Source of the DNA: Halocafeteria seosinensis
Taxonomy: Eukaryota; Sar; Bigyra; Bicosoecida
Length of the DNA: 64,000 bases
Assembly (NCBI GenBank): GCA_001687465.1
Contig: LVLI01000170.1
Coordinates: 52,886 to 116,885 of the forward strand
Reading direction: 5' to 3'
In this document: positions 5,151 to 64,000 of the stretch, one piece after another
Numbering within the stretch: position 1 is the stretch's first letter
How the letters are laid out: each line of letters begins with the position of its first letter
Notes under the pieces: model-generated
The model's input: only the letters and a program-made list of their open reading frames with translations
Database searches by the model: none
What the model was told of the DNA's origin: nothing
Made by a program: the position numbers and the translations under genes

Positions 5151-8100
5151 CTAACTGGAATCTTCCCATCCAAATGCTGGATTTTTAGCAGATGATCTCT
5201 TGTCTTTACGAAGCACGACTGGAAGTTCTTGTGCAGTATCATCCACATTTCCACCAGACTTGCGTCTTCTCAGCACAACCACCACTGCAACAAGTATTCC
5301 AACAAACGCTAGTGCTCCAATTGTCGCACCTGCTATCACGGCCGCAGACGAACCGCTTCCGCTCCCAGCCGCTGCAGAGCGTGGAGAAGCAGAGGGCATG
5401 GCAGTTGGCGTAGGGCCCGTTTGTAAATGAACAAAATGCTCAAAGGTACCTGCGTCATCGGAATCCTCTCCATTTATAAGCATTTCGAATGTGTGACTCT
5501 CTCGCGGCTCTTCCTGCAACTCTAGACTTGTCTTTCCGGTAGCTCCCCGTACATGGATGATTGGATCGGTTGATGCTGCTGCGTTGACCCATTCACTGGT
5601 AATCAGAGCATCCACCAGGCTGCTGGAGTTATTGGGTATACCAAACAATTGAGTGAAAACGGCAACCTCTTTGCCTGCTGGAGATACGCCATAGAGGACA
5701 ATAAAATCCCCCTCCTGTTTTACCCAAGTAGCGGCACTAACGCTAAGTAGTCGGTTGGTTGAAAAATCAAACCCTCCAGAACACTTAACTTCCCCACCGG
5801 TGCTCCCACAAACAACCGACTGCCTAGATACTCCTTGCGTAGCTAAATTACTTGTGTCGAAAACTAGCACAAATTCACGGTCAATGGATACAGCGAACTC
5901 AGGGTTTTCAAAGGAAAACGTTTTCTCCTTTATCGCAGGTCCAGTACCAACGGTTCCCTCCCAAGCATTTTTCAAAAGAGAAACCACAGTTGCTTCTACA
6001 CCACTGTCGGAGCAGTTCCACGACATGACAATGAAAGGTTTGCCATTTTTGTCCTTGCCAAATACTTTGACTCCCTCATGTAAGAGGCAACCACTGGAAT
6101 CTTGCTGCACGTTTATGGGAGAAACATTGACTGTATCGCTATCGGTGTTTTGCGTTGCAAGAATTTTTCCCTCTTCTCCAGAGGCAAGGCCGACAACGTA
6201 GGTAGTTAAGTCCCACGTAAGTGCATCCACACTCCTTCCTACTGTTTGGTCTTGTCTGCAACTATTGCAACCAATGATCACTTGTTTTGATTGGCAGTCA
6301 CTAGAAGCGTCAACAGGGGTCAATAACATCTCTCTCGATGCAGGAACTCCGGTGAGCAAGAATGGCTCATTGTTGAGCTCTGTTCCCCGAGGAAGATAGC
6401 TTAACGACCCGACAGACGTTGGACGAGTACATGCACTGAACTGCTTAACCGTGTTGTTTGTCACTACGCCACCTTCACCTTGTCGTCCAGGAACTCTAGT
6501 TGCGGAAGCACTGTGGGTAGAAGTCGGCGACGGAGCGCGAGGTGAACTCGTTGGCACAAACGTTGGAGTACCACTAGGAGTAACTCTTGGGGTAGGGGTT
6601 GGCGGTGATAGGTCTGCATGGTCCGAATACAAATGAGACATATGGATACCTGCCCATTGTTAAAACCCAGTACACACCTCGAATGACAGCATCTCCTTGA
6701 GCTAAAGAGGGGGGCATTGGGGGAGCAATGCAGTCGACATCTATCACTCCTACCCCTTCGTTCCAACCAAAGTAATGTGGATTCAACCACACAAAGCGCT
6801 CCTGTCGATTCTCGTACGCGGTTTCGTACGTAAAACTAAGGCAGTACCAGTTCTGTGTCCCGTTCCCGCCAGGGAGCTTATCAGGATTAACGACAAAGCT
6901 GAACATGACAAAAAGATCCCGGTTAAGCGTAAACAGGGCGTGAGCTAAGAAAGAATAAAAACGAACTTACTTCAGAACAGCTGCGTCGTCGCAAACCACG
7001 TTGTGTTCAACTCCTTTACAGAACTGGAAGTTTGGTTTTTTCTCTGTTGGGTTCCAGAAGAAATTGAAAGAAGCACGGGTACCGTCTTGCAAAAAGAAAA
7101 ACCTTCGTCTGCATGTATCATAAAGGAAACTCTTACGCCTACCAATAATTCTACAATAAAAACCGGACTACATACTGCAGTTCGCCAGGAAGTCGCTGGC
7201 ACATCCCTTCATGAATGTCGGTCATCGAAGGAGGAGTACTACATGCGGAACTCAGCACCCCGGAGGTTCCATCGAAAGAAATCACGAGAGACCTGTTTTT
7301 CTCCGTTAAACCGTAAGAGGTAGTATATTCGAAATCCAAGCAGTAACCAATTGACGGGAGATCGGAAATGTTTCTGCATGAGAACGACCAGAGTCAACTT
7401 AACGTTCGCCTCTCCGGCGTTCCAAAACATACTTAAGCATAGCATTGTTACAATGCCCGTTTCCAGTGCAGAATTGAAAGGTGTCTGTTCCGACGTCGTT
7501 TCTGCCTGGATGCTCAGTAAGATTCAGAGAGCCACACGCTCCGCCATCAACTGGACCCTGGTAAAAGACGTTTGCTTTCCTGTGAAAATAAATTATATAT
7601 CACATGCTTGCGTCGTTGTCTATAGCACCATGAACTGTCGTGCAACATACCTCGAAGATCTCGGGAGAATTGGACATATTCCCGCTGTGAGAAAACGACG
7701 ATGCAACCTTCGCTACAGTGGCTAGTAACAACCGTCGAGCAGTTCATCCGCCAACTTACGTGTTAGGACATTACTATATGCACGGAGATTCTTTTCCCCA
7801 GGCAAACCACTTCTACATACGGTCTCAGAAAAGAAGGCGGATGATTCACTAGTTGTCTGATTCACCGTCATCCATAGCACTCGTCGCTCTGGTTCACCCT
7901 CAATGATGTCCGGCACGGAGAATTCAATACAAAACCAAGTCGCACCACTCTGATCTTTAGACTTGTAGAATAATCTGCAACCGGGACATAAGACCAAACC
8001 TCATCTGTGAGATGCCGCCCCAACTGACACACATACTCTAAAACTGAGAAATGAGAATCGGACGCGCTGGCAGGCTCTGTGCATTGTCGACGACCGCCGA

Positions 8101-10952
8101 CGCCTCTACAGTACTCAAATACGTCGAAATCGTCATAGCCGCGAATAGCCGCATTCTCTTCAAATAATGGTCCCGACAAATTGAACGAACCACATGTTCC
8201 GTTTCGATCCCAGAATCTTAGCTGTTGTCTGCATGTCTCTCAATAGTTGATACGAGCTACCTCAACATGAACGTGTTACAGTACGTACCGCAAACTTGTG
8301 GGTAGTGCTTGACACATTTGTCCTGCGTAAATCCATTGTTAGCATGAAAGCATTCATACACGGACATTTTGGTAGGAGAGTAAACACACCATCTGAGGAA
8401 ATTCGACTGGGACGAAAATCTAGTAAGGGATCACCATTACAGTCTGAGGATATCGCCGCCTCGCTACCATTCTCTTTCAACCATAGGAAAGAAGCACCGT
8501 CTGTAGTGATGGCGCTCGAGAACTCAATACAATACCATCCATTTGTCGTGTTTCTGATACATGAAAAATAGGAGAGAAGAGTGCTACAGTATAAATTTTC
8601 GCAAGATCAGGTTCGGCGTCACTTACGATATAGTTTTCAATCTGGCATCCGCATCACAGGCACGCTCCGTCTGTCCGAGGAAATCACTTTCGCCGTTCTG
8701 ACAATAGCGAAACTGACTATATAATCTTGGACCGTGCGATCCGCCTGCTGGAGGATTGCCCGAGAAATTAAACGATCGACAAGTACCTTCAAAGTCGTTA
8801 AACTTGATGAATTTTCTGCAAATACCATATCAAAGTTAATAGTCTTATGTATACCTCCCAACTGTGTGAAACACATACTGAGTTTCACTTGTCAACCCTT
8901 TGCATCGTCCGGCTGTTACAAATACCAATAGGAGTCATCATGCGCTATAGTCATTGGTACCATTCAAAAATATAATCACGGGTATGTACCTTGAAGGCTA
9001 TAGAAATTGGGAGGCTCTTCGTCGCATCCGACGCTCATCGCTGCACGTGTCGTTCCTTGACCATCGGTTTCTAGCCATAGAAACGTGGCAGTGCCGTTCC
9101 AAAGAAATTCTACACAGAAACTGGTAGATTCCCCATTCCCTCTCATCTTGTGTATGTCTCTGTGAGGTAAGAAACATTTGCGCCTCTAAACCGGCAACGA
9201 AGACGGACAAAACGTACACCGTACGTACTGTGTGGAAGCAGGTAGACAACTTGCCAGGGAAGCGTTAGTGTCCTGGCAGAAACGAAAGTTCGAAACTGGT
9301 CCATTAAGCCCAGGCATTGTTGAAAAATCAAATGAGCGACAACTTCCATCTTGTTTAAATTGGTGTTCCCCTCTGTATAAAAAATCCACAGCCTACTTGT
9401 AAATTGGGGAAATGCTCAAGGTGCTTGGCTTACGTCACTGGCAGTATTGGACAGTCGGAATCAACTGCGAGGCATAAAAGCAACAGGAAAAAAGTGCTCC
9501 ATAAAAAGCAAGGGGGAAATTTGTATACAACTGTACCCAATACGTCTTCGCTTGCTTCAGGAGCGTCATTTTCCTGACAAGGGATTCCTGAAGGCTCCAC
9601 TGCCAGGAACACTGATTGGTTCACTGCTGTCTTGCTCATCCAGAGTGAAAAGTGTTTCGTTTCAAACGGCCCGAAGAATATGCAGGTCCAGTCTCGGGTG
9701 TTCCCTAGCATTGAGTTTACGGTGCTGAAATGACCACAAAATTAAAGCACAATTCCAATTTCCATGCATCTGTGGTAGTGCATGAATGTCCTCACCTAAT
9801 TACCAAATCTTCGCCACAAACACGGTCTCCAAAAGACCCTCGACAAAATTTATGCAACGTGTCACCTTCGTTTGGGTTGCTACCATCGAAGTCTACCGAT
9901 ACGCATTGTTCTCCTTTAATAGAGTCAGGGTCGGAAAATCGAAAAGGGTTACTACTGCAAATACGAGTTGAGCATAGAACCTAGTGGGTCACAGAGTAAG
10001 GAACGATTCCAGCTTACCGGAAAAAAATAGGAACCTCGCCACACATCGCATCTGTTAAGGTACGCCAGGCCTCTATATATTAACAGAGAAAACTACTTAA
10101 TCCAATACAAAAACTTACTCTCAGTTTTTGATTGGTACATAAGAAGTGGTTCTTCTCCAGCACAATCCGAGGAGAGAACCGCATGACTAGCGTCGTTTGA
10201 CATCCAAACATAATTTGACACTTGCAAAGTTGTTGAGAACTCCACACAGAACCAGTTTTCTACATTCTCGTGGAACACGACGGAGCTGCAGCTAAAAGGT
10301 ACAGGGTCAAGAATTGGAGGCCCCGACCAAACAGCGAACATACCTTATTTGTGCATTTGGATCAACATCGATGTCACTCCGTTTTGATCTCAAAGCTAGA
10401 GTAAATTCGTCAGTAGCGTTATTAATGTTGGAAAAATCGAAGGATACACATTCTCCATGTCGGCTCTTAGCAGTATATATCAGCCTATTGTCAAACTTGA
10501 CTTTACGTTGCGCGCTGCAAAGGACATAACTCATGAGTACGAAGTTTGCAAGAGTCAACATTTAGGAAACGCATGGCAAAGTTTCGTTACATGACTCTGA
10601 GACAATTTGCACAGTGCCACCGACTCCAGAAACAAGCAAAGAAGGCTCCTACAAGCTTTCAGTCCCGGTTTAGACTAATTCTTGTAATCTAATCGCTCTG
10701 ATATGTGCTAAGAGATCGAATAGTGAAACCTGACCGAGTTGTGTGGTTAAGAAACACCACCCAAAAACAACCTCAGGCTATACTGGGGCATGCAGAGTGC
10801 TCTCCTTACCTTTCAGGAATACCCCCGCTAGTAACTTGTTCGATCGCTTCAGCTGGAGCTCCCGTGGCAGCTACTAATGATAGCAGAACAAATCCGAAGA
10901 TAGATGTTAGCCCTGGCAGGGCTGGCTTCAGAATCAACTGAATCATTTTCAT
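5151..10952 (-). CDS. Membrane-anchored seven-module cysteine protein with C-terminal propeller-like domain
   Basis: I do not recognise a named family. About 16 exons can be traced. Exon 1 (10952 to about 10812) encodes a signal peptide rich in Leu, Val and Ala. Fourteen exons then alternate between two types. Type A has a C-x-S-F-x-F core, a later F-x-F/Y-C-x-G and a final Cys; type B has W-F/Y-C-V/I-x-F, then V-W-M/F-N, then S-S-D-C-x-G. The A exons lie near 10535, 10018, 9385, 8820, 8225, 7575 and 7130, each followed by a B exon, making seven A-B modules. The last exon (about 6640-5151) encodes a Thr/Pro stalk, a domain of about 370 residues with a paired-Cys CNSCRQD motif, one transmembrane helix (AGATIGALAFVGILVAVVVV) followed by RRRK, and a short cytoplasmic tail. 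A type I surface receptor or adhesin is an inference. The module order matches the divergent neighbour at 11349. Exon edges are approximate. Confidence 0.8.
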
Positions 10953-11348
10953 CCAGAAAAGCTTTCCATCGTTTTTCCGGTAGACAAAAACTTTAAAACG
11001 TTCCTACATTGCCCGAGCAAAACGATCCGGGTCAGATGCTCCTTGAGGCTTAAGCCTCGATATGTTAGCGCTGAAGCAGCGGAGTCTAGGGATAAACATT
11101 CTTCAGGAGTATCTTGTCAAAATGCCCGCCAAAGTGGTGCACCCCTTGAGTTTCCCTGTGTCCCGTTGCCATAAACTTTTTGTCTTTCCCTTTTGCGAGC
11201 GTTGTGCAAGCAATGTAACTAAACCAGAACAAATTGTATGTGTTGTCAGTGCTATCAAGGTTGATAGCATCGTTTGTACTAGTGCTTATCAAAAGCATAA
11301 AGACTACCGGGCTCACTCGTACCAAGTCTGTATCGTTTGCTGAGAACA
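10953..11348. promoter_or_regulatory. Shared intergenic region between two divergent modular surface-protein genes
   Basis: These 396 bp separate the start codons of two paralogous genes transcribed in opposite directions, so they probably hold a bidirectional promoter. I see no certain TATA box or initiator. Short open frames occur on both strands (for example 11062-11343), but they overlap one another and look like chance. Coordinate expression of the pair is inferred from the geometry only. Confidence 0.5.
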
Positions 11349-14300
11349 ATGCGAAAAGCTCTTCCGTTGCTCCTCGGAGCTTTGCTCTGCGCTTACACGG
11401 TTGAGGGAGCTATCCCGGTAGATGGACGGTATGTGTAGTATGATGCATGTCGTGTAGCGTACTTGTTCTTTGAAAAGAGGAAGAGCAGGTAGTGGAGTGT
11501 GTGTATGCCTCTGCCTTGAAGCCATTCATGAGAAGGATCAATATCTGAAATTAACTCCGCCGAGTTTGTTTGCAAAGATCGACAGAAGCAACTCAAGTGG
11601 TTACATAAATGAAATAGCTGACATTACCGGGCTGGAGGGATGATTTGGGTTTTGTGCCTCTTTGCAAAAAGTCGTGTGCCTTCCACAAGGGGAGTGAGAT
11701 GCAAAGAGTGTTTATCTGACGGTGGCATTTGGTGTTCCTTGTTTACAACTCAAAATGTTAGCAGCAATTCATGGGCTATTGAAATTCTATGTCTTGCCTG
11801 ACAGAATTTCTCATGGACTTTGTCCTTTGTTTTGTTTTTCAGAGTCAAACGGAGATTCTTAACCACTGAGAAGTACACCAAGCGCCCAGTGCCAATGGGT
11901 GATAAGACCTGTCATTCAACTGATTTCTCCCACAATCCCGACGAGGGCGATTCCTTCTATTACTGTGAGGGCACCATCGGTGGTGTGGGGAATAACGTCG
12001 ATGCAGGTCCTTTGGATTGCGGTTACGGTGACATCAGGTACAGTTTTGTACAACAATACTATAGGTGCACAGCACTCCTCTAAAGTTGGATGCCACTTGT
12101 AGAAACGCAGCAACATTCGGACAACGGACAATTACTTTTGTGTATCTTTTGAATGGTCTAATACCATGAAATACGTTTGGTATAACAATGCGGCCAGTGT
12201 CGGAGTGATGTCCTCTGATTGTGAGGGCGATCCTCCCCTACCAATGTACACTGCCCCTACTTCGAGTAAGTCTGATTGATGGATGTCCCTGGTTGTTTTT
12301 CGAGCCATCAACCCGTTCAATTTCACGATGCAGATGGGATGTGCGGCCAAATCCCGGAGGAATACCAAAAGTGCGTTTCCGCCACTTTTGTGTGTTATTA
12401 TATATTCCAATGATATGGTATTTACGCAGCTTGAGTCGTATCGTTCTCGATGACGGCTATTGTGGTTCTGTTGACTTAGTGTTGGATGGCAATAGCAACA
12501 ATCAACCGAAGGAGGGGGCTCCTGTTAGTGATTTCTGTACAGCAGGAGACAAAACTTGCACCCCGGCAAGTGCCATCATTCAGTATGTTGCTCCCTCCAG
12601 GTTCGTTTGCTTTCCCCAACCGATGCTTTGTTACTTTTTCTCTATGTCCTCCAGATCAATCCATTCTTCCCTCGAGCATGAATCAATGAACTGGACATGC
12701 GTGCACTTGACTGACTCCGTTTCGACTTCTTACTACATATGGTTGTTGGAGAATCCAGACATGTCGGGCAATCCACCGCAAGCTGGAATTGGAACATCGT
12801 GCCTAGACGCCGGCTTTCCCTCGGAAATACAAAATACAACCCGTATGGAAAAAGCATATCTTTGTTTATCTTGCTTTCTAGATTATATCTCGTTTTCATT
12901 CATATAAGATGCAGAAAAGGCCTGCCCAGTATTACAAGCGTACGGTTACCCGCGTTTCACCAGTAGTATCAAAAAACGAGTTTCACAGTCGCGCGGATTT
13001 GTGCGGTTATTGCAGGCCCTCCGAAATGCAGTTTATTCCTATGAATCTCCCAGATCAATGCCGCTCTTTTGATTTTACATCCAGTATAGGTGTCGCAGCC
13101 AACAACCACTGGTTTCGTTGGTGCGTTTCCAACTCGACAGTCCAGGCTGACTGCAAACCAACCCAACTTACGTACGTCAGTTTTGCTGTAGGAGTCCGAA
13201 ATATTCTTGAATAAATTCTTCTTAGTGCAGCGGGATGACGATAGATGAGGAATCAAGTGCAATGACATGGTTCTGTGTAGACCTCACTGGGATAGATAGT
13301 GACACAGTGCATATGTGGGTGAACAGTGATGGGAGTAAGGCGGAACTGGTTCCCGAGTGTACCGACACAAAACCAGAGACCACCATAGCCACCTCCGGTA
13401 TGAGTTTATTGATACCTATTCTTTCGCGTCGCTCTTACTTCATCTCGGTCTTTGGGTATTGCAGCCGGTAGATGCGACGGGCTTCCTTCGGACTTGGTGT
13501 AAGTTTCCTTTTGAAATGGTGGCGACTTCCTCTTTGCTGATTTGCACAACTGAATCCGCTACTAACTTGTACCGAGTGTTCCAGGGACAATGTACAATTT
13601 AAGGACTTTGACGGGCATTGTCAGTCTTTTAACTTTACGGCGAACACCGCGGGAGGAGGAAATCCGAGCAGGCTTTTGTTCAGCACTTTCCGTCATTGTA
13701 CCAACGGAATAACAAATTGGGATGGTGTATCTCCAACGCTTCGACGGTGTGATAGCAAGGCGACTGTAGAGTAAGAAACCAACCTCCTATACACTGTACA
13801 GGCCTCACGTGAGTTGAAGGAGTAAATATTCTTCCGACCAGGTACATACTGAAATTGGATAACATGGGACAAAGCGCTCCTTGGTTTTGCCTTAAGTACA
13901 CATCTAGTGTTCAAAAAGAAGGACAAGACCATGTGTGGTTCAATACGGATGGAAAGATGGCTGCTTTATCTTCTGACTGCGATGCCGATAAGCTCTTAAG
14001 CTTCCGGTACAGTACGTATAGCGTTGGAGCAAGTGGTAAGCACAAAAACGACTAAGCGACTAAATGAGAACGCTAATGAGATATAATGGGTATTCCGCAT
14101 CTTGTCCTCTCAAAACCACAGATTTTTGTATGGTTCTTCCGAGTTCATTGACTGGGTACGTTGCACTGTCGCTGTGTCTTCGGGCACATAATAGACGCTT
14201 GCTTCTGCAGGACAACTTTAAGATTCTGGGATCCATTGGGCGCCTCTGAGAACACCACATACTGTCGTTCGGTAAACTTTAATCCTATTCTTCTTCCTCA

Positions 14301-16004
14301 GGAAGAAGCAATCACTAAGTCAGTTCCAATGAACGAATACCGTGATGATGCCGACTTGTTTGAATTCTGCGAAGGCACTGGTGGAAGAAAAAAGTGCACT
14401 GACAGTACCACGCGCTCAAGCAATTTGAATAGTTTTGGCAAAAATTTCCCTGAGTACAATTACGCTAGTATCCAGTACGTGTTTGCAATTTATCGACAAT
14501 TTCGCTCGGTTTCTTCAGGTTGACTTCTCTTTGGCAAGTCATTTGCAGAGATCTGAATATTTACCAAGACGGGGACATGAATTGGTGGTATTGTGTGAAT
14601 TACCAGTTCAAGTATGATACCACCAATCAAGGGTCTAATAGTCCTCTGTCGGTATACATGCACCCCGGAAACTCGTCCGATGAGAACAAGGGGAGAATGG
14701 CTTTCTTAGTACAAGAAACTGGTTGTAAAGGAATACCTGGCGGCAATCCGAACCCCATTAGTTCGGGATTCGCTCATCCTCTGAAAGGTAGGGAACAACT
14801 CGACTGACTACTTCTCTTACCAATTGATTTTATTATGTCGTCACGTTTATTTCTTTACAGAAGGAGAATGCCAAGTGATTCCAACTAAAGCACAGTACGT
14901 CCTGCACTGATTCCCAAACTGATGCTTTCGGCATTGAGATCCTACCCGATGTGACTGCAGAAAACAAATTCGATGGCAACAAAACAAGTGGCTCTCGGTT
15001 GATTTTAGTGGGAACCCCGGTAGGATGGATGGGCAGGACCCCTTCGAATTCTGCACGCATAACGGACATTGCTACCCCGCAGTGCCAACGTAAGTTAATG
15101 GCAGTTCCTTCTTCGATGGTTCTGTAAAGCACAGATCACTTGTAACACATAACGGTGCAGCAATATTAGCAATCCCGGCGGAGCTAGTGATGTTTGTATT
15201 GATTTTACCTATACATGCTCATATGGTCTTGACGACCGCTCTCGTGGGCTATGGGTGAGCGACACAATGGCAACTCTGGTGGACAGTTGTATGGCAGATG
15301 GAAGCGCGTCCAATCAATTCGATCCGGGAATGACTCAGAGACTACCTGGAGAACTTCAGTATGTAGACGACTATGGTACAGATGGATATTTATGCTTTGA
15401 ATTGAATCGGTGATTTCATCACGCTTCCAGGAAGAGGATGTCTTTCTGGCAGTATGGCACCTGCGTCTCTTTCGACTTCAGCAAACCACCCTCAGAGCAA
15501 GACGCTAGTGGCCTTCAATATTGTGAAAACGTCAGAGAGAATAACTGGTGTGCGTCTACGGTCTCTCTCGAGTAAGTACAACATACAGTTAACCCCAACT
15601 CCAATCTACTATGTCGACGAAGATGCTACCACGCAGGAGTGTCTCGAATCCGGAGGATGCGCCTCAACAAAACTGGTATTGCGTCACGCTTAACTATGAA
15701 GATCAATACGGGATCTCCGACCATGGGTACGTTTGGTTCAATCCGCACTTCTATTTCTGGAATGTCGGATATGGACAGCTCGTGAAAGATTGTGACGGAA
15801 GTCCTCCTGCGGTTCCTAATTGTGCCGATATTCCAAAGAGAGGAGAAAATGTCCTTCGTAGTAAGTGCTTCGTGCTCTTATCTCGCCCCATTGTTCAGGA
15901 GGCTCACCACTAACTTCTTTGTCTTCCCGCAGATGGAATGTGTGATGACTTTCCACAAACATTGCCTCCGTCTCACTCTGACCAGCAGTGCGCTAACGCT
16001 ATGT
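11349..16004 (+). CDS. Secreted seven-module cysteine protein, divergent paralogue of the gene at 5151-10952
   Basis: Exon 1 (11349 to about 11429) encodes a signal peptide (MRKALPLLLGALLCAYTVEG). A long first intron of about 410 bp follows. Fourteen exons then alternate A and B types. A exons start near 11842, 12424, 13017, 13586, 14211, 14962 and 15430; B exons near 12103, 12652, 13228, 13842, 14520, 15162 and 15630. Corresponding exons match the divergent gene one to one. A4 has HCQSFNF against CRSFNF, A6 has FEFCTHNGHC against FQFCTGNGHC, B6 ends RLPGELQ in both with a GTATGTAG donor next to it in both, and B7 has VWFNPHFYFWN against VWLNPHYFGWN. A final small exon (about 15932-16004) gives a short hydrophilic tail ending QQCANAM. 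There is no stalk, propeller-like domain or transmembrane helix, so the product is probably secreted. The family is unknown to me; exon edges are approximate. Confidence 0.78.
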
Positions 16005-16193
16005 AGTTTCGATAGGGGTTTGGCCATATTTGAATATACTTAGGCGCTGTTGTGTATCCTTGCAAAGGCCTTAATGCGACAATCGTTTTTCTTGTCATCC
16101 GTCCCATGTACGGCGGGGTCACGTGAGAGCCAGAGGACGGTATACTGGATGTCAGGGTCTCGATGGAGCTTCTCCAGAAGAACTAAACTAAAA

Positions 16194-22819: not shown

Positions 22820-24153
22820 TCAGTCAGAGAGGCGGAATTCCTTTACGTAGTATTGATATATGGATCCCGCGTCGTTCTCGTAATCTACGAAAGTAAACAG
22901 CATATTGAAGTTCCAAGACTTATTCGACGGCGCATATTCATCCGTATGTGGAATAGATACAAAACCAGTCGTTGGATACCCGTGGGTGAAAGATTGAGAA
23001 AACTCCTGAAGGTTCGCTTCGACCCCCTTCGTCTTCTCAGCACCCAGACGAAGGTCAACGAGTGCTGGGCCTTGTTTATTGCGATCCAAATACTGCCCAA
23101 ACACCACAACAAAGTCTCCGTCCAACCAGACCAGATCGTACACTTCTTTGAAAAAATGTGGGCTGTTAAATTGGAACGGGGAAGAACAGGAGAGAGCACT
23201 GGGGCCAGTCGCGTTACACGCGAAAGCCTTCGACGCACCTCCGTCTAAGCCCTCCTGATCAACAACCAGCAAAGATTGTTGGTCTGGGGACGTTGAAAGC
23301 CCTATAGATTTCATATCGAACTCCTTCGCAACATTGAAGCTCTTAAGGGTCTTGATGATACCCGGGTGCTCCCACTGATCCACCACCGCAATTACAAGAT
23401 TATGGCCACCACAGTCAATGGCCACCAACGGTGAGCTACTGACCCCAAAGAGTTTGACCGACGTAACGGTACAAAAATCAGCGCCCTTCGGATAGGGTGG
23501 CGAGACTGGAGACAAATCGATGCTGGTTCTGTTAGGGAAAGTAGTCATCATCATCAGTAGAACTCTTCCATCATCAGCTTCGGTAGCGTTCGCCGCACCG
23601 GCTAAATAAGTACCGCCAGTATGCATTTTCAAGGTATCGGCACTATGCCCCAAGGTTGTATCTCTAGGGCATGAACTACAGGTTACGTTAATGGGGGCAT
23701 TAGTACACGCCTTCTTGGGAGAAAACATGTACTGCCCGGATGTCTTGGGGGCTATTCCCAGTATCCCGAGCAATAACCAATCTGCTTGACCACGGTCAAC
23801 AAGACCCTCAGTTATGTAGTCAACACTGCCAAAAGCTGTACCTCCGGGAAGTGGGCAATAGGAATATACTTGCGCTCCTGAAACAGTGGCCTCTCCTTTT
23901 TCAGTTTGTCTGCCTGGCACTGGTGTCACTGAAGCAGTGGCTGCGGCAGAATTTGTATTCCCGTCCGCTCTGCATCGACGTCCCTATCAACAATAGTCGG
24001 ACAAGAAAACGAACAATAAGCTTCAGTTAGTAGCCCTTACGATTGCAGCATGCTCCTCGCTTGTGCATAAAGTTGGGGACACAATAGTGTAAGGAGAAAA
24101 ATTGGGACTGCATACACGCCGGCCCGGCTTCGTGTTTGTCGCGACGGGAGCAT
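22820..24153 (-). CDS. Secreted paralogue of the propeller-like domain
   Basis: Two exons (24153-24041 and 23969-22820) join in phase to give 420 residues. Exon 1 is a signal peptide (core YAVPIFLLTLLCPQLYAQA). Exon 2 opens with a short Ala/Thr linker ending VPGRQTEKGE, matching VPGRQGEGGV in the gene at 5151-10952. It then follows that gene's last domain: CSSCPRDTTLGHSADTL against CNSCRQDQTVGRSVDAL, GDFVVVFGQYLDRNKQGPAL against GDFIVLYGVSPAGKEVAVFT, and F-x-M-L...DAG near the end. It stops where the other protein enters its stalk and membrane helix, so this one is soluble. The second acceptor (gatgcag) was chosen because it alone restores the frame. Function unknown; the domain looks all-beta and may be a propeller. 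Confidence 0.75.
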
Positions 24154-36006: not shown

Positions 36007-37014
36007 ATGATTGTTCTCGCATTGCTCTTTTCGCTAATGTCATTCGTCCAGAGCGCCCAGGAGGAAATCGAATGCACCTGCGCCAAGGACTGTACAATGG
36101 GACACTTTTATCAGTGCATTGAAGTACCAGACCCCACACTTTGCAAATTTGGAGACAGCATTGCAGTGTGCAATGAATGCCCTGTAAGTTGCCGAGAGTG
36201 ACACGCTGCTTGGTTCAACAGGATAACAAAGTCCGTGGGTGCTGTACAGCGAGGAAAGTTTCAAAACAAAGCCAGCCATCGGGACACCAGCTGCGAACGC
36301 TGCCCCAGGGGTCAATATCAAACATCCTTTGGATCTAGCGGGTGTCGCAAATGTGACGACGGAACAACAACTTCAAGTCTGGGTGCGGACACTGCAAATG
36401 CCTGCAGGAAGTGCAATGTTGGCAAATATTCTCGAGATGGTGACCAGTGTAAACAGTGTCCAGGCGGACGGAAGTCAACCACCGCTAGGGATGAGTGCGT
36501 TGACTGCCCAGAAGGAACATACGGATCTACTGGAGAACAATGTACTCTCTGTCCAGGAGGGAAGTTCTCAAATGTCAAAAGGCTTGCAGACAAAAATGGC
36601 TGTAAAGGTTGTCCTGTCGGCGAATTCGCTGAAGCAGGAAGTGAGACATGCCAAGGATGCCCACCAGGCAAATCAACTGTATCAAGAGAGAGTGAATCTG
36701 TCGACGATTGCATTTATTTGCCTTCGGTGTCTTCTTCACCTTCTCCAGAACAGCACCCGTCTACCAGCTCGTTTCCCAGTCAAACGGAACCTCCAACAAG
36801 CAATAGCAGCATAGCAGCCGGAAAAGTGCCGAATGAGAGGGGCGCATCTCCTGCCAGTATTTCCACCTCACGTTTACCATCCAGCAACCAAACCCTACAG
36901 CCACCCACTCCCATCGCAGCAAATCGTACCACTAAAAACGAAGTGACTTGCCTGCAACAGAAGCCAGTACTGTCTCCACAAAGACCAGCACGAGTCACAA
37001 AACGGAAGAAGTAA
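36007..37014 (+). CDS. Secreted Cys-rich protein with ephrin-receptor-like (GCC2/GCC3) repeats
   Basis: Two exons (36007-36183 and 36250-37014; intron 66 bp) join in phase to give 313 residues. A signal peptide (MIVLALLFSLMSFVQSAQ) sets the start. Five or six Cys repeats follow, of the type C-x2-C-x2-G-x-Y/F-x-x-x-G-x-x-C, for example CERCPRGQYQTSFGSSGC, CKQCPGGRKSTTARDEC, CVDCPEGTYGSTGEQC and CQGCPPGKSTVS. This is the pattern of the Pfam GCC2/GCC3 (ephrin-receptor-like) domain, common in protist surface proteins. A Ser/Thr/Pro-rich stalk follows, then a basic tail holding VLSPQRPARVTK. There is no transmembrane helix. The same tail motif ends the GLUG-repeat proteins at 44.2 and 49.2 kb. Confidence 0.8.
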
Positions 37015-41040: not shown

Positions 41041-41338
41041 ATGAAACCCAGAAGAATCCTCGCGCGCCTCTGCTGTGGCCGCCGGTTATTAAGCCGCAGA
41101 GTTACACACAATACACTCCGCACTTGCAAGGTTACTTCGACGGCATCAGATGAGAATTGGGGCCGATACGCTTATTTGTGCACCAATAGCTGTGAAAAGA
41201 ACTATTATCAACTTTTTTTACACGTTGTTTGTGAAACATGGCTCCAAAGACACGAACTTCGTGGCACAGACGGTACATGTATTCCTTGGATCGCTGATCA
41301 GGATATATTTCCTTGTGACGATTAACATAGTTTTGAAT

Positions 41339-41492
41339 CCCAGTCTGTCAGGGGAATCAAAATGGTCAAGGAGAAAAAATCACTTCGCTTATGTTATTTA
41401 CTTGTGCTGCTTGCTCCCAGTCTGTCAGGGGAATCAAAATGGTCAAGGAGAAAAAATCACTTCGCTTATGTTATTTACTTGTGCTGCTTGCT
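41339..41492 (+). repeat. 77-bp tandem duplication over a signal-peptide start
   Basis: Two consecutive copies of a 77-bp unit start at 41339 and 41416 and are essentially identical. Each contains an ATG (ATGGTCAAGGAG) and the signal-peptide codons of the GLUG pseudogene. Because 77 is not a multiple of three, reading from the first ATG soon leaves the frame, while the second ATG (41439) stays open to about 42302. Confidence 0.9.
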
Positions 41493-44339
41493 ACCAGGAG
41501 TGCTGTAGCGCTTTCGCCATTGACTGGTGCTGCTCGTTCCATTCCGGCCAGTACTGGGAGTATGTTGAAGACGGTAGAATTCTCTACCATTCATGAGCAA
41601 CGATTAGCGGAAACTACCGGAGCAGACTCTCTGGTACAATTGCGGATTAGATGGGTCCTGGCCATCCGACTACCGAGAGCTGCAACAGACCGTAATTTGG
41701 GGTCTCAAACCCAAACCACCGAAGACCGGCTATATCCGACAATTGATTGTGCAAGCTCCTGCTTCTCATACTTTTGCAGTAGCTGTTTTCAAGATATGGG
41801 TAGTCGAGCGGTCCCGGCGGTGCTTCTGTTTCCCATCAGTCACTATAATGACAGAGGTGCTTCGGATATTTCCATTTATTCCACGGCAGACGCTGAAGTT
41901 TGCTCTGTACTGTGTCCCCTGCATAAATGGCCGAGGACTGAAAATGCTCTATCCATTGGTGCACGAAGCTCTCGCTCGATGCTCACCGTAGACCGGGTTT
42001 CGTTTTCTTTCGTCCTTTTCCAACGTATTTCTAGAGATTTTGTTGACCCCGAACAAGTCAAGCGAACCTTCTCGTCCATTGGAAAACCTGGAAAGCCCAC
42101 GACGCTGCTGCCTGCAGTTTTGAGTCAACATCATGTGCATTCTCCCACTTGTTTCAAGTTCATGAAACTATGTGTTTGCTTTCTGGTGCCCGTATCGCCG
42201 TTGGGAGCAACGAAAACTCTGGAAAGTGTCTATCTGAGAGCATTGATTATGACACTGGCTCGACAGAGAGAGTCAGTATCGAAGTCCAAATGTCTCCAGT
42301 AGTAATTTTGGTTTTAGCCCACCTCCTCATCTCGATGATAATATTAGTGGATGGCTACCAGACAGAGATGGAGTCTCGTCCTGTGGATAGATATCACAAG
42401 ACGTCACCATGTTGCTCCGCATACGCGAAAGGAGACGAGAGCGGTGGTTCCGAATACTCTGCCACTCTGATTCTGTGAAGAGGCGGCCACGTAAACCCGT
42501 ATTGAATTCTGAGTCAGTCCGTCCGTATCTCATGAATTTGACAGTTGTGTTGATATTCACTGGTGGATCAGTCGCGCAAGACCCCTGCGATATGCGATAC
42601 AATATCATAAATGGCCATGAGACTTGCCTTCAGTATTTCCCGGATGACAATCTCTTCCGAATGAACTGCAGGGTCCTCAACTGGAAAGCCAATGACAGCA
42701 ATTATGATCGCGACACCCACATTACGCTTGAGGGGAATGAAACATTTGATGGTGGTGGTCGCGAAGGAAATATCATTGACTTGAAGGACACTCAAGACTT
42801 CTTTGGATTATTCCGGGTTGAGAATGATGGTAATGACATTGAATCATTGGATGAAGCTCCGTCGATTCGGAATGCTCATGTCAAGAACGGGAAAACTGCC
42901 AAATTCGGTGGATTTAGTGCTCGAAAAGACCAGAAGTACTTTGTTGTGGATTCATGTAGCTCAACAGGAGAGATTACCATTGGATTACCAATTATGCTGG
43001 TGGTATACGTGGTCGTAAAGCGGCTCTCAACGGAGGCCACATCAAGATATCATATTCCTATTCAACCGGGATAATACAGGGTTTTCGAGCTGGTGGTATC
43101 ACAGGAAAAAATTCAGGTCGCAAGAATGGTACTGTGAATATCACCCAATGTTATTCCACCGGGAGGATTGAAGGAGGTGAGGCAGGTGGTATCAACTGTT
43201 GCGTCGGGAACAACACTTCATCCTGCCTGCGCTGCTGCAACCGGTCTTGGCGTTGGCGCCGCTGTGGCAGGCTCAGGGTCTTCTCCTGCCAGACTGAGCC
43301 TTGTCGGTACCTCTGACACTGTGGGCGCAGGCATGGCTCCTCCCCCGATGCCTCCTGAGCTTAACCAGTGCTGTGTTCCCTCACGGCGCATGTCAGCAAG
43401 GCTGCAGGAACAGCGGGCCCGTCGCTGCTTAACACGGGCGCATACCGCTCTTCGTTAAGAGGATGTGGTCAACTTCCCGGCCGGTGGGCTATCTGTCACA
43501 TTTGTGTGTGTGAGGTGGTATCTGTGGAGACGATGCAGGTTGGAACCATGGACGTGTGTACATCACACAATCATATTCCACAGGAGATATTCGTGGAAGC
43601 CGGAGTGGTGGTATAGTGGCGGATGATAGCCCACGGGCTGGCGGTGAAGTACATGTTGGAGATTGTTATTCACAAGGAAATATTGAAGGTGAGCTGTACA
43701 GTGGCGCAAACAGGTGGAGGGGGCGGCGGGGAGACGGGGCTTCCATTAGCAACAGGCGATGTCTACATAGCGAATACGTATGCTTCCGATGTTGTCAGTC
43801 CTCCCGATGGCGGTGGAATCATTGGGCATATGGGCAGTGACGCAAGTGGCGTGATACAAGTGCAGCATTCGGTCCATAATGACTCCAATGGGGCTAGTAT
43901 GGTAGGAGACGACAACGCTCAAGAGGGTGTTTTAAAGACGACCGCCATTTTCAACACTTTGGATGTTATACGAGGTCAACTGTATCATTATGAGGGCAAG
44001 CAGAAATGGAATAATAAAATCTGGGCTCTCAATGGCACTGATGCTTTGCCCATTTTGCGCTTTCAGCTGTCGCACTCGTCGCCGGAACCAAGTCCAGTTT
44101 CTACTCCCACACCATCCAGAACCCCTTCTCTGTCTGCTTCAGAGACGCCCACTAGCACGCCAACGTTGACACCTTCGGTCACGCCCTCTCAGTCTCCTCA
44201 TGTGTTAACTACGAAGCGGACACTTCTGGCGCAGCGACCCGGGAGAGTTCCGAAGCAAGATTCCGGTTATTGCATGGACGATGTAAAGTTTGAAGGGAAA
44301 ATTCATCCCGGCGACGATGAACTTAACGTAGTTAAATGA
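41439..44339 (+). pseudogene. Broken GLUG-repeat surface-protein gene
   Basis: This is a paralogue of the intact gene at 46717-49296. It has a similar signal peptide (LCYLLVLLATRSAVA), GASDISIYSTADAEV against GASDFSIYSAAAAEV, HETCLQYFPDDNLFRMNC, DGGGREGNIIDL, GLUG repeats, and the same Ser/Thr/Pro stalk and tail. It is broken many times. Frame changes occur in the first part (41.6-42.4 kb) and at the first GLUG repeat (about 42975-43000). A 319-bp gag-like fragment is inserted at 43194-43512, and another shift lies near 43700. Reading continues in the last frame to a stop at 44339. Expression of a full protein is not possible without the breaks being introns, which their lack of splice sites argues against. 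Confidence 0.85.
43194..43512 (+). mobile_element. Gag-like fragment inserted in the GLUG pseudogene, copy C
   Basis: The insertion separates two adjacent GLUG repeats. Sequence before it ends aggtggtatc (43184-43193) and the same ten bases resume at 43513-43522. The intact paralogue has a single gcaggtggtatctgcgg at this place, so this is a clean insertion with an 8- to 10-bp duplicated target. The insert codes PACAAATGLGVGAAVAGSG and the rest of the copy A sequence. It has no inverted ends. Because ggtggtatc recurs in the host repeats, the exact duplication length is uncertain. Confidence 0.8.
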
Positions 44340-45350: not shown

Positions 45351-46716
45351 GCAGGAGCTCCTTCAGTTCATCCGAGTACTTGGGAATTATATATTTGCTT
45401 CGTCAATCTTGATATAGGTAAATGGACTGGCAACTGAAACGATAAAGTTTACTCAATTCAAGCACTAAAGTTTTTGCTTCACGGATTATGGTTGCTGCGC
45501 TCTGACCCTGGTCATCTCCATTCATTCTATCTAGTTAGAGGAAAAGGATCAATGCATGCGACGGGTGATAGTCAGTAGGAATACGAAGAGCGGTTTAAAT
45601 TGATCGTGTATGTACTTGTGATGTGGGAGGGGTAAGTATCGTGTTTTCTTCCTAGGCCGTGTGTGTAATTCGTCACACAACTTAGTGCAGACTAGGAGCT
45701 ACGACATCACGAGTACACAATCTGGGTCGCTCGAGGACGCATCTAGTGCGAAGTTCGCTGCCACTGCAATCCATGCTGCTGCAAATTTCTGTCGCTTCAC
45801 GTTGTACTTATTGGCGCACGTAATGGGGGTTCGAGTGCTACAGTAGATGGATGCCTTACTTCAGCGTGAAAGGAAACACGGTAGGAGCTCGGCTACAGAC
45901 AGACAAACTGCCGCCGCTGTGCAGTAAGAACGACCTATCAGTGAATCCAGGACAGTGGTAACATCCTACATACACTCGTCTAATTGCGTGCACATTGTAC
46001 ATACCCAAGTGGGGCTCTCCTGCTCTCGTTGCCCCCTAACACCCACCAACACGACTTCTTCCAACGATGTTTCACGAGGCTGCAAGTGTGCCGCATCTTG
46101 TTTCTTGCTTGGCTCCATCCACCACTGAGGGAAGGAACCATGAAACTGAAATGCCAACCGACGCATACAACAGTCATACGTCTCCTTCTGTGGAGTGCCC
46201 ACACAGGGCTGTGACGGTCACGCGGCGTGACTCACGCCGCAATCAGGCATGCCTATGTTCTTGCTTGAAGAAAGAACGATGTATCTGGATACAACGACAG
46301 GGACCCATCCAAGGACAAACAGGGTTGATATGAGAACGCACACGAACTTCTTGAAACAAGTTCGTGGTGACCTCTTTTCCATTTCTTCCGTCCGCATGAG
46401 ACATATATGAGAGCACAAAGCTTTCTTGGAAGGCCAGCTTGCAATTTTCTCCCGTACACATCGCGTTCAGGTGGAGTGGACGAAGGACGGATTCATTCCC
46501 CCGTAGCTACACTGGCTGGGGGTGGGGGCACTTTTTCATATATCTCGGTTTGCCCTTTCTACGTGTTTTACGGCAAGGATAAAGCCCTTCGACCGAGAAA
46601 TCTGACATACAGGGACGTAGCTCCGGAGCCTGTTTCTTGTTTGGCTCGCTCCCTGGTCAGGATTATTCTGTCTGACGATTATTTTCGGAAACAGCCTGAC
46701 AGAGAGAGGGACTAAA
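45351..46716. other. Spacer upstream of the intact GLUG gene
   Basis: Frames overlap on both strands near 45980-46330 and are not supported. Two small perfect inverted repeats lie here: 46222-46240 (9-bp arms around one base) and 46341-46366 (9-bp arms, cacgaactt and aagttcgtg). The last few hundred bases should be the promoter of the gene at 46717. Confidence 0.4.
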
Positions 46717-49296
46717 ATGGTCAACGAGAAAAGTCACTTGGGCTACGCCATTTATATTCTTTGCTGCTTGCTACCAGCGTTGCTGGCGCTTCCGCCATCC
46801 ACGACCCAGACTGAGACTGTTGCTCGATCCATTCCGGCCACTACTGGTGGTATGTTGAATGCGTTGGAATGCTGTGACTTCGATGAAACACTGGCAGCAA
46901 AAACTAAGGAGGGGATTTCTGTTCTGCGCTTGTCCTGGTTATCCAACTACGAACAGCAGCAACGGATAGCGATGTGGGCACATGTTTGGGGTTTCAAACC
47001 CAAATCACTAAAGACCGGAGTCGACGGGCAATTGCTTGTACAAGCTCCTGGTCCTCATGCCACTTCAGTCGCTGTTTTAACGATATGGGACCGGCGGCTG
47101 CAGATAACATGTCGGTTTCCCATCGGTGATTATGTGAGTGAAAGAGGTGCTTCGGATTTCTCCATTTATTCCGCGGCAGCTGCGGAAGTTCGATCTACAC
47201 TGTGTTCCCTGGAAAAATGGTCAGTGGCGGAAAATGTTCTATCCAATAGTGCACTAACACCTCGCTCTTGTTGCTCGGTGCTCAGCGTAGCAAAATCAGT
47301 GGACTGGACGGGTTGCGTCTATTTCGGTTTCTTTTCGACGGATTGCTATTTTTTTTTTGTTGACCGCGTAAATGTCGCACGAGCTTCAGTATCCATTCGA
47401 ACCACCTTGAAAGCCTACGATGATGCTGCTTGCAGTTTCGGGCCCACATCATGCCTAACCTCCCATCAACAAGAGGGCTTGTTTCGCGTTCATGGAACTA
47501 CCTGCTTGCTTCCTGACGCAGGTATCGCCGTTAGAAGCAATAAGCAGGTTGGAAAGTCTCTGCCTGTGAGCAGTAACTATGGCACTCGCTCGGCAGAGCG
47601 AGTCAGTATCGAATTCCAAATGCCTCCATTATGTCTGGTCTGTCTAGTCATTTTTGGTGCAGCCTACCTCTCCATTTCCACGAAGATGTTCTTGGATAGC
47701 TACCAGACAGAGGCGGAGTCTCGTTCTGTGGTTGGATACTACAAAGCGTCGCCAAGTATCCCCTTGTATGGTCAGGAGAAGGAGAGACCCCGCGGGGGTT
47801 TGAACTCACTTTGCAGCGCGAAGCCGAGACGACGTAAACATCAAGCTCGCCTTATGGCTTTGGAATCGGTGCTTCTGTATCTCATCGCTTTGACAGTTCT
47901 GGTGGCATTCCCCGGGAAGTCGCTTGCACAGGAATCCGGCGATTTGCGCGAAAGTATCTTAGACGGCCATGAAACTTGTTTTCAGTATTTCCCGGATGAC
48001 AATCTCTTCCGGATGAACTGCACTGTGCTTAGCTGGGAAGCCAGTGACTTCAATTACGATGGCAACACCCACATTTCGCTTAAGGCAAATGAGGTTTTTG
48101 ATGGTGGTGGTCGCGAAGGAAATATCATTGACTTGGGGGGCACCGAAAACTTCCATGGATTGATCGCGACGGACAAGAACGGTAATGGCATTGAATCCTT
48201 GGATGAAGCCCCCTTGATTCGTAATGTACATGTCAAAAATGGGTACACTGCAGGCTGGGGTGGATTTATAGTTCGAGAAAAGCAAAGGTATTTTATGGTG
48301 GATTCATGTAGTTCGACAGGAGAGCTCACTAACTGGAATACTGGTGGTATATGTGGCCATAAAGCGGGTCACAACGGAGGCCACATTAAGGTGTCAAATT
48401 CCCACTCTACAGGGACAATACAAGGCAACAATGCAGGCGGTATTGCAGGATTTCGTGTAGCATCCGCAAACGGGACTGTTGTTATCACCCAATGTTATTC
48501 ATCTGGGACGATTGAAGGACATCGTGCAGGTGGTATCTGCGGGGCAAAAGCGGGTAAAAACAAAGGTCATGTGTGGATCACACAATCGTATTCCACAGGA
48601 ACTATTTACGGGGAATACAGTGGTGGCATTACGGGAGGTGATACGGCACATAATGATGGTGAAGTCCATCTAAGAGATGTCTATACCCGAGGAGATATTG
48701 AGGGTAAGTCGGCCGGAGGAATTACAGGGGTTAATACACTGGGCTGTTGTGGACTCCAAACAGGCAATGTATACATAACGAATTCGTATGCGTCCGGTAT
48801 TGTCCAAGATCCCAGTAGTGGTGGCGGATTTATTGGAAATATACAGACTGCCGCGAGTGGTTTTATTCAAGTGCAGTATTCGGTGTACAATGGCTCGAAT
48901 GGGTCTACTATGGCAGGAGGCTACGGGTCTCAAGGGGGTGTATTGAACATTACAGGCATTTCAAACACGTTGGGTGGTTTACAAGGTAAACTGTATCATT
49001 ATGAAGGCGTCCAGAGATGGGATACTGAAATCTGGGCTCTCAATGGCACTGATGATTTGCCCATTTTGCGCTTTCAGCTGCAGCAATCTAGACAATCGTC
49101 GCCGCAACCAAGTCCAGCCTCTAGAACCCCCTCTCCGTCTGCGTCAGAGACGCCCACTAACACGCCAACGTGGACACCTTCGGTCACGCCCTCTCAGTCT
49201 CATGTGCTAACTACGAAGCGAACACTTCCCGCGCAGCGACCTGGAAGCGTTTCGAAGCAATGTCCCGGTGATTACACGGAGCGCCAGAGGATGTAA
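46717..49296 (+). CDS. GLUG-repeat cell-surface protein
   Basis: An uninterrupted 859-residue frame. Residues 1-27 form a signal peptide (IYILCCLLPALLALPP). A Cys-containing region follows to about residue 310, then a hydrophobic helix (CLVCLVIFGAAYLSIS) and a basic stretch (KPRRRKHQARL). At residue 380 a second signal-like segment begins (MALESVLLYLIALTVLVAFP), then a region with FPDDNLFRMNC and DGGGREGNIIDL. From about residue 530 to 720 come six or so GLUG repeats with G-x-x-x-G-G-I-x-G and V-x-I-T-x-x-Y-S-x-G-x-I motifs, for example ITQCYSSGTIEGHRAGGICG. GLUG repeats form beta-helices in bacterial and protist adhesins. A Thr/Ser/Pro stalk and a tail with TLPAQRPGSVSK end the protein. The product may be one two-helix protein or two fused secreted units; a surface role is inferred. 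Confidence 0.8.
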   Translation: MVNEKSHLGYAIYILCCLLPALLALPPSTTQTETVARSIPATTGGMLNALECCDFDETLAAKTKEGISVLRLSWLSNYEQQQRIAMWAHVWGFKPKSLKTGVDGQLLVQAPGPHATSVAVLTIWDRRLQITCRFPIGDYVSERGASDFSIYSAAAAEVRSTLCSLEKWSVAENVLSNSALTPRSCCSVLSVAKSVDWTGCVYFGFFSTDCYFFFVDRVNVARASVSIRTTLKAYDDAACSFGPTSCLTSHQQEGLFRVHGTTCLLPDAGIAVRSNKQVGKSLPVSSNYGTRSAERVSIEFQMPPLCLVCLVIFGAAYLSISTKMFLDSYQTEAESRSVVGYYKASPSIPLYGQEKERPRGGLNSLCSAKPRRRKHQARLMALESVLLYLIALTVLVAFPGKSLAQESGDLRESILDGHETCFQYFPDDNLFRMNCTVLSWEASDFNYDGNTHISLKANEVFDGGGREGNIIDLGGTENFHGLIATDKNGNGIESLDEAPLIRNVHVKNGYTAGWGGFIVREKQRYFMVDSCSSTGELTNWNTGGICGHKAGHNGGHIKVSNSHSTGTIQGNNAGGIAGFRVASANGTVVITQCYSSGTIEGHRAGGICGAKAGKNKGHVWITQSYSTGTIYGEYSGGITGGDTAHNDGEVHLRDVYTRGDIEGKSAGGITGVNTLGCCGLQTGNVYITNSYASGIVQDPSSGGGFIGNIQTAASGFIQVQYSVYNGSNGSTMAGGYGSQGGVLNITGISNTLGGLQGKLYHYEGVQRWDTEIWALNGTDDLPILRFQLQQSRQSSPQPSPASRTPSPSASETPTNTPTWTPSVTPSQSHVLTTKRTLPAQRPGSVSKQCPGDYTERQRM

Positions 49297-63500: not shown

Positions 63501-64000
63501 GTGGAGGAGCAAGCGCTATATTTATGTTTGGGAACGCGGAGAAAGCAAGTCCCCAAGATGAATCAATTTTCAGAATCCCTGTTGTTGTCGCGGGTGGAGG
63601 GGGCGGTGGAGGAAATACCAGATTCTGCTGTGCCCATGGCGGGGCTGGTGGGAATGAAAATTCTAGACAAACAATCTCTTTGGTGGGTCAAGGAGGGGAC
63701 GGAAAGTCGCCACATTCTTCCACCCCATTGACCGAGCGGATACGATTGTCCAGACGGGACACATTTGAAACGATGGATATTGAAGAACCCTTCTACAAGG
63801 CAACCACCTTTGCAACAGACGGTAATTTCAGCATCGTCGCAGGTGGGGGAGAGGGTGGCTCCCCACTCGGCGGCGGACAACGTGGGGAATCAGGCAGCTT
63901 CCAGTTTGCTGTTGAGCTTATTCGTTCCCCTGCTCAAAGCGGAAAATGGGGAGCGGGTGGTAAAGGAGGCTCCGGTATGCGCTCTGGGGGAGGCGGTGGA
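60577..64000 (+). CDS. Large secreted fibronectin-III protein with ALK/LTK-type glycine-rich domain, 3' end beyond window
   Basis: Exon 1 (60577-60682) encodes a signal peptide (LPSALLVFFYAITLECSL). Exon 2 (60753 to beyond the window) joins in phase and stays open for over 3.2 kb. Fibronectin type III domains are visible. The first runs from PEWAPVHEFIRRRTAIQVAW to KYQFRIRAANSEGYGPYS; later ones end YQFQVRVQSSQGSSPWS and YQLRVRALSNEGAGQWSSP. Inside the first and third are long inserts of one repeat type, with SAQALQEELNKLDTIEHVIV in one and SADQMRTELMKLPSMGSVNV in the other, each followed by a W-x-V-T-F strand. From about 63290 a glycine-rich domain starts (KVWGGGGGGAGSSG, GAYVFAKLRAFPGQILEVVV), closely like Pfam Gly_rich (PF12810) of ALK/LTK receptors. 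No membrane helix or kinase is inside the window. Confidence 0.8.

Follow-up and report, generated by a model that had tools for sequence, protein, structure and literature searches.

A 64,000-nucleotide stretch of the Halocafeteria seosinensis genome (the window; its contig, C115, is one of 605 in a eukaryotic assembly that totals 30.6 Mb) raises the question of why two divergent paralogous genes, M on the minus strand and P on the plus strand, lie head-to-head at positions 5151–16006 and carry the same seven-module array. The modules of M and P are colinear; a membrane-like segment is present in M and not in P; a second head-to-head pair (P′ and M′) lies on contig C389; and a database protein (P0001) is a relative of the free form that extends across all the modules. 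With a little less than even confidence, we read the locus as a possible two-part system for surface recognition or adhesion, with a secreted P that would bridge, block, or modulate what an anchored M binds; export, co-expression, and binding are the steps of it that we infer. Layouts of a comparable kind serve recognition in an amoeba and a tunicate, which speaks for this reading.

Each module consists of exon A (129–264 nt), built around the consensus DGtC.SFdF...F.yC...C, followed by exon B (155–239 nt) with the consensus WyCV.F...lW...ssdC. In the 7 × 7 table of P modules against M modules, the same position is the best match in 7/7 rows and 7/7 columns, and the colinear order ranks first among the 5040 one-to-one orders (sum 945, runner-up 889.5), which bears out the seven-module series, common to both genes position by position, that a preliminary description of the locus had claimed. 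Same-position P–M scores range from 5.9 standard deviations above residue shuffles at position 2, which is weakly conserved, to 22.9 at position 4. This colinearity is independent of the phase pattern of the hand-built gene models given below. The same description had pointed to similarity within genes exceeding that between genes at every position as evidence against it; the within-gene value is the higher one at position 3 only (P3–M3 78.5; best within P 80.5, best within M 95.5).

The plain two-exon modules of the preliminary description hold as exon A/exon B pairs but have to be supplemented by linkers: a separate linker exon (25–37 nt, GxCxxLPxxL type) is found at five of the six module joints, and at the remaining joint, between modules 6 and 7, exon B6 includes the linker. 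This fusion is seen in both genes and is therefore probably older than the P/M split. In the hand model of M (minus strand), the modules that enter the table are located at 10119–10514 (module 1; exons 10344–10514 and 10119–10285), 9537–9954 (module 2; 9796–9954 and 9537–9724), 8990–9372 (module 3; 9229–9372 and 8990–9159), 8390–8815 (module 4; 8627–8815 and 8390–8553), 7760–8228 (module 5; 8037–8228 and 7760–7974), 7176–7579 (module 6; 7433–7579 and 7176–7373, the latter with the fused linker), and 6678–7108 (module 7; 6971–7108 and 6678–6898); the linker exons are 10018–10051 (34 nt), 9434–9464 (31 nt), and 8879–8912, 8289–8322, and 7651–7684 (34 nt each). The corresponding modules of P (plus strand, also from the hand model) are located at 11843–12265 (module 1; exons 11843–12037 and 12111–12265), 12430–12842 (module 2; 12430–12582 and 12655–12842), 13016–13397 (module 3; 13016–13171 and 13231–13397), 13585–14035 (module 4; 13585–13770 and 13842–14035), 14211–14787 (module 5; 14211–14474 and 14549–14787), 14961–15358 (module 6; 14961–15089 and 15161–15358, again with the fused linker), and 15431–15860 (module 7; 15431–15571 and 15637–15860), with linker exons 12334–12370 (37 nt), 12915–12939 (25 nt), and 13465–13498, 14122–14155, and 14861–14894 (34 nt each). 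The possibility that exons A and B are repeats of each other was also considered and rejected: hhalign gave probabilities of 0.5% (14 + 14 rows) and 0.3% (47 + 47 rows), both inside the range of 30 column-shuffled control runs, the best of which reached 0.98%.

The complete hand splice model of M (5151–10952) has 21 exons and one open frame of 1411 amino acids, with a predicted signal peptide, the seven modules, a stalk, a strand-rich domain, a membrane helix, and a short tail; that of P (11349–16006) has 21 exons and 968 amino acids, with a predicted signal peptide, the seven modules, and a short hydrophilic end. In each gene, 14 module exons and five linker exons are framed by one signal-peptide exon at the start and a single last exon. 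By these models, the start codons are separated by 396 bp (10953–11348), a candidate shared promoter. Exon 1 of M (10810–10952, minus strand) contains the start codon, the putative signal peptide, and the first IP element, and exon 1 of P (11349–11428, plus strand) the start codon and the putative signal peptide, the hydrophobic segments being assigned by hydropathy. Introns are 55–86 nt long, except for the long first intron (414 nt in P, 295 nt in M). The donors had been described as the same in both genes, and PGEL ahead of GTATGTAG is indeed found in M and in P. The exon edges had been described as matching, which stands insofar as the entry phase is identical at 20/20 introns, although this agreement is partly built in, since knowledge of the linker and phase pattern guided the choice of the hand-set exons. 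Of the exons in the hand models, the first automatic models contained 16/21 for P and 12/21 for M exactly and mis-spliced several others; a predictor trained on the same introns recovered 21/21 exons of M and 19/21 of P, an agreement that is circular.

The two genes differ in their ends. The last exon of M (5151–6613, minus strand) encodes a Thr/Pro/Ser stalk (~6480–6613), a strand-rich domain (~5402–6480), a second short stalk, a membrane helix, and a tail. The domain has ~360 residues, with strands predicted in a low-confidence structure model (two-row input; predicted local distance difference test score, pLDDT, 32) that contains strands only; a beta-propeller, which would have repeated four-stranded blades, was considered. 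The predicted membrane helix, residues 1354–1372 (5271–5327), has a Kyte–Doolittle mean of 2.85 over 19 residues and is followed by a short basic tail (5154–5270), in which QELP and KNPAF motifs are read; similar tails are seen at C389, C140, and C170. The last exon of P (15933–16006, plus strand) starts with the linker-type GMCDDFP and reads through to a stop at 16006, with like endings in P′ and P0001, and may have arisen when an array was truncated where an eighth module began. No 19-residue membrane-like segment is detected by hydropathy outside the N-terminus in P, P′, or P0001. The earlier assignment of a stalk, a large domain, and a membrane helix to M, and of a short hydrophilic tail to P, thus agrees with a hydropathy segment seen in M only.

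On C389, P′ has modules 1–7 on the minus strand, with a start codon near 46905, and ends in GMCQQYPSVHPFSPSSN and an in-frame stop; this ending was read by hand, and the trained predictor ran P′ into a partial M copy. Head-to-head with it, at a start-to-start distance of ~934 bp, lies M′ with modules 1–4 on the plus strand, from ~47840 to the contig end at 50203; the rest of M′, beyond module 4, is not found on any other contig of the assembly. The partial M copy (C389:37808–42273) is inverted, lies downstream of P′, is 97.7% identical to M′ over 1081 bp, and is 5′-truncated; its exon 4A is frameshifted and its exon 5B reversed. Either the copy is broken or the contig is misassembled here, near its end. 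In both C389 M copies, exon 4B matches P4 with a higher score than it matches M4, that is, the position is right and the type is the other one. No similarity to the C115 flanks is detected in C389 27500–37499 at E ≤ 1e-3 (60-residue frames). Both P-type genes found (2/2) are thus head-to-head with an M-type gene, and a duplication of the entire pair probably preceded the divergence of the C115 and C389 loci. The recurrence of the layout at C389, together with the P-like ends of P′ and P0001, supports an old inverted duplication with anchored and free versions, in line with the inverted duplication proposed earlier.

P0001 is the sole relative obtained with a four-row module alignment against 5.8 billion proteins. 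It has 963 residues, comes from contigs of at most 3140 bases, and shows a global identity of 48% to P, 61% to P′, and 36% to the M modules; its alignment covers 21/21 exons of P. The motif LLGALLC of P exon 1 recurs in P′, and FGALLC is seen in P0001. P0001 ends in GMCQNFPNVHPYNYPHNSNE, an ending of the same kind as that of P and known from the protein sequence; its source label is "lgn". Because a protein so long comes from a contig so short, P0001 appears to derive from a spliced transcript; it supports the splice model of P and argues against the free ending being an error of a single assembly.

Other searches gave no family and no clear fold. Pfam has no family at E ≤ 1 in any of the four module regions searched and, for the last exon of M, yields only weak matches below the cut-off, to membrane segments and unrelated families. 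In the protein collection, no relative is found for M alone at E ≤ 0.001 or for the M-domain alignment at E ≤ 0.01, these searches and the one that gave P0001 having scored the ~8000 candidates sharing most words, so that weaker relatives may be missed. No confirmed relative is found in viral and prokaryote contigs. The PDB has no sequence match for the last exon of M at E ≤ 10 or for P0001 at E ≤ 1, and by profile only short matches to unrelated chains (E of 0.058 or weaker).

Within the assembly, modules are found on five contigs (C115, C389, C140, C506, and C170), a lower bound, as the best candidates were scored. The exon A and exon B profiles have 75 matches in the stretches fetched outside the window, 73 of them at ≥10 bits, and 73/73 of the latter fit best the position expected from the order, one (exon 5B of the C389 partial copy) being reversed; two matches below 10 bits (8.2 at C170, 9.8 at C389) were dropped. 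At C140, C170, C506, and C389, some exons are missed or merged in the automatic models, and counts there use the profile matches. C140 carries a single M-type gene, whose C-terminal domain and membrane end are as in M; at C170, M-type modules are followed by a short stalk and a membrane end, and the M domain is lacking; at C506:9298–13698, an M-type seven-module array is joined to an unrelated, very long surface protein, 473 residues of which match 15 other stretches on 11 other contigs. A 4997-residue open frame on C515 belongs to the same giant surface-protein family. C140 and C506 are 85.6% identical over 4.3 kb, up to a point 32 bp beyond the final module exon of C506; because the identity stops in the intron after module 7, transfer of the array as a cassette probably lies behind this pair. 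No P-type gene accompanies the M-type genes in the neighboring stretches searched at C140 (14 kb upstream), C170 (14 kb), and C506 (5 kb, where the contig ends).

The M domain also occurs apart from the array. C364 and C194 have the domain, a membrane segment (by eye), and mucin-like stalk frames, and no module is detected there in the fetched stretches (3.3 kb and 20 kb, respectively). A third copy of the domain lies in the window, on the same contig as M, at 22820–23983 (minus strand), 7 kb beyond P, 30% identical over 279 residues; neither modules nor a membrane segment are detected in it. By eye, the tails of M, C389, C140, C170, C364, and C194 share NP motifs (NPAF, NPSY, NPVH, NPVR, NPYH, NPYR), and four of these tails, in M and its homologues, have an ELP/EMP motif, a possible sorting signal.

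The unrooted tree of concatenated modules (C170 without exons 1A and 2A, M′ with modules 1–4, the partial copy with modules 3–7) recovers P + P′ and C140 + C506 with a support of 100 each and places M together with both C389 M copies at 76. Identities are 47% for P–P′, 49–51% for M with the C389 copies, and 35% for P–M. Linker lengths support the same P-type/M-type split: the first two linkers are 37 and 25 nt in P and P′, the first is 34 nt in M, M′, C140, and C506, and the second is 31 nt in M, C140, and C506. Because a membrane end with similar short tails is common to M, the C389 partial copy, C140, and C170, we regard the anchored state as probably the older one, with the anchor lost in P. 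Synonymous sites are saturated for P–P′, M–M′, M–C140, and P–M. For C140/C506, the ratio of nonsynonymous to synonymous divergence (dN/dS) in the module exons is 0.31 over 725 codons, and diversifying selection overall is not seen; single exons vary, with dN/dS of 1.30 in 2A (27 codons) and 0.71 in 5A (62 codons). Here dS ranges by exon from 0 (3A) to 0.71 (5B), a mosaic that suggests gene conversion.

In the two-part system that we tentatively propose, M would hold the seven-module array off the cell on its stalk and strand-rich domain, and may signal or be taken up via its short tail; P, having lost the ancestral anchor and kept the array, would meet the same ligand or M itself; and the P/M pair would have been duplicated as a unit before the two loci diverged. 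Several observations weigh against such a system. C170 joins the P branch of the tree (support 93) and the grouping of M with the C389 copies has only 76, so that the history is not settled; C140/C506 are under purifying selection overall, which does not favor an arms race for that pair; the structure model of the module is of middling confidence and has no clear fold match; the intergenic regions of C115 and C389 share only 8–12-base matches; and only 2/5 module contigs hold a P-type gene, the three other M-type genes having none in the fetched stretches, therefore M does not always need a P partner. A more specific form, a new kind of protist recognition locus in which the two genes of a divergent pair keep the seven-module ectodomain cassette in an anchored and a secreted version, the pair has been multiplied as a whole, the cassette has also moved to other tails, and the partners meet via position-matched modules, is unlikely in full.

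The main rival of the two-part reading, which we regard as possible rather than probable, is that M and P are ordinary diverged paralogues without functional coupling. The head-to-head order would then be left over from an inverted duplication within a compact genome, and P would be a secreted component of the coat or matrix. The low P–M identity with its saturated synonymous sites, the close packing of genes in the window (by eye), and the three M-type loci without a P partner in the fetched stretches would all be expected in this case; the head-to-head position of every P-type gene found would not, and neither would the seven positional types kept in both P and M, if modules were free to move or be lost. 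The pairing and divergent orientation also fit a self/non-self or mating-type locus like tgrB1/tgrC1 or fuhc, with allele-matched mutual binding and broken copies that feed diversity. The inverted, 5′-truncated M′ copy just downstream of P′ and the C140/C506 mosaic point the same way, and full or partial duplicates and inversions are described near tgrBC (PMC12324515). Still, the sole measurable pair, C140/C506, shows overall constraint instead of diversifying selection, and the C389 copy could be a misassembly, hence we consider such a locus improbable.

Very improbable, in our estimate, is that M serves as a feeding, prey-capture, or substrate-attachment receptor and P as an opsonin-like lectin that is either shed or soluble. 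An array of tandem cysteine-rich modules borne on a stalk would suit this role, as would the occurrence of the array on more than one kind of tail and a probably heterotrophic host, the genome having no match to the chlorophyll-binding family in one search; however, neither the Pfam search of the module regions nor the fold search of the module model returned a clear match. Finally, the short exons, models made by reading splice sites, and the lack of any M transcript found could be taken to mean many small genes, pseudogene exons, or chance frames in place of two long genes. This is hardly credible, given a single protein, P0001, that runs through all modules, and profile matches elsewhere that invariably occupy the expected position.

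Other surface-type genes are seen in the window. Two neighboring related genes at 41337–44336 and 46621–49293 (plus strand) have HETC.QYFPDDNLFRMNC, Gly-rich repeats, and a Ser/Thr/Pro stalk ending in TTKRTL.AQRPG; similar repeats are found by eye at ~36034–39449 on C194. A long open frame at 60740–64000 (plus strand) has a Gly-rich stretch and repeats that resemble fibronectin type III, and Cys-rich repeats, possibly ephrin-receptor-like, precede a Ser/Pro stretch at 36202–37011 (plus strand).

The general class to which the locus may be compared is that of soluble decoy and anchored receptor paralogues, in which an ectodomain exists in both an unbound and an anchored version; for these, a head-to-head order is unusual, as is a colinear run of so many distinct modules, and paired-gene recognition loci are known from few lineages. 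Among the top ten of 1,059 literature matches, there is no similar protist case of secreted and transmembrane divergent copies, which is weak evidence of novelty. The nearest analogues in layout are tgrB1/tgrC1 of Dictyostelium and fuhc of Botryllus schlosseri. The products of tgrB1 and tgrC1 are described as a pair of polymorphic membrane proteins with TIG repeats (PMC12324515; PMC11088635). The diverging paired surface-protein genes at C115 and C389 resemble these, as do the presence of more than one pair, seen in some genomes, and the partial copies and inversions nearby; unlike tgrB1/tgrC1, where both partners are described as membrane proteins with TIG/IPT repeats, P, P′, and P0001 have only the N-terminal hydrophobic segment, and the module regions match no Pfam family. 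In fuhc, the secreted and membrane-bound genes lie 227 bp apart with linking transcripts, and the membrane form has three immunoglobulin domains (PMC3691228). The adjacency of a secreted and a membrane-bound gene is shared with our locus, where both states are predicted from sequence; the differences are that M and P lie on opposite strands, which does not allow one linked transcript, that neither the modules nor the last exon of M match an immunoglobulin domain, and that all seven modules, of no known domain, are common to M and P in order. The locus would at most work like these systems, none of their defining domains being detected. A family without Pfam or PDB match here has a paired layout, a predicted secreted partner, a second pair, and a probable cassette swap past module 7. 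Should P and M interact, the locus would represent the independent evolution of a two-part system and would offer a natural test case for what keeps such partners head-to-head.

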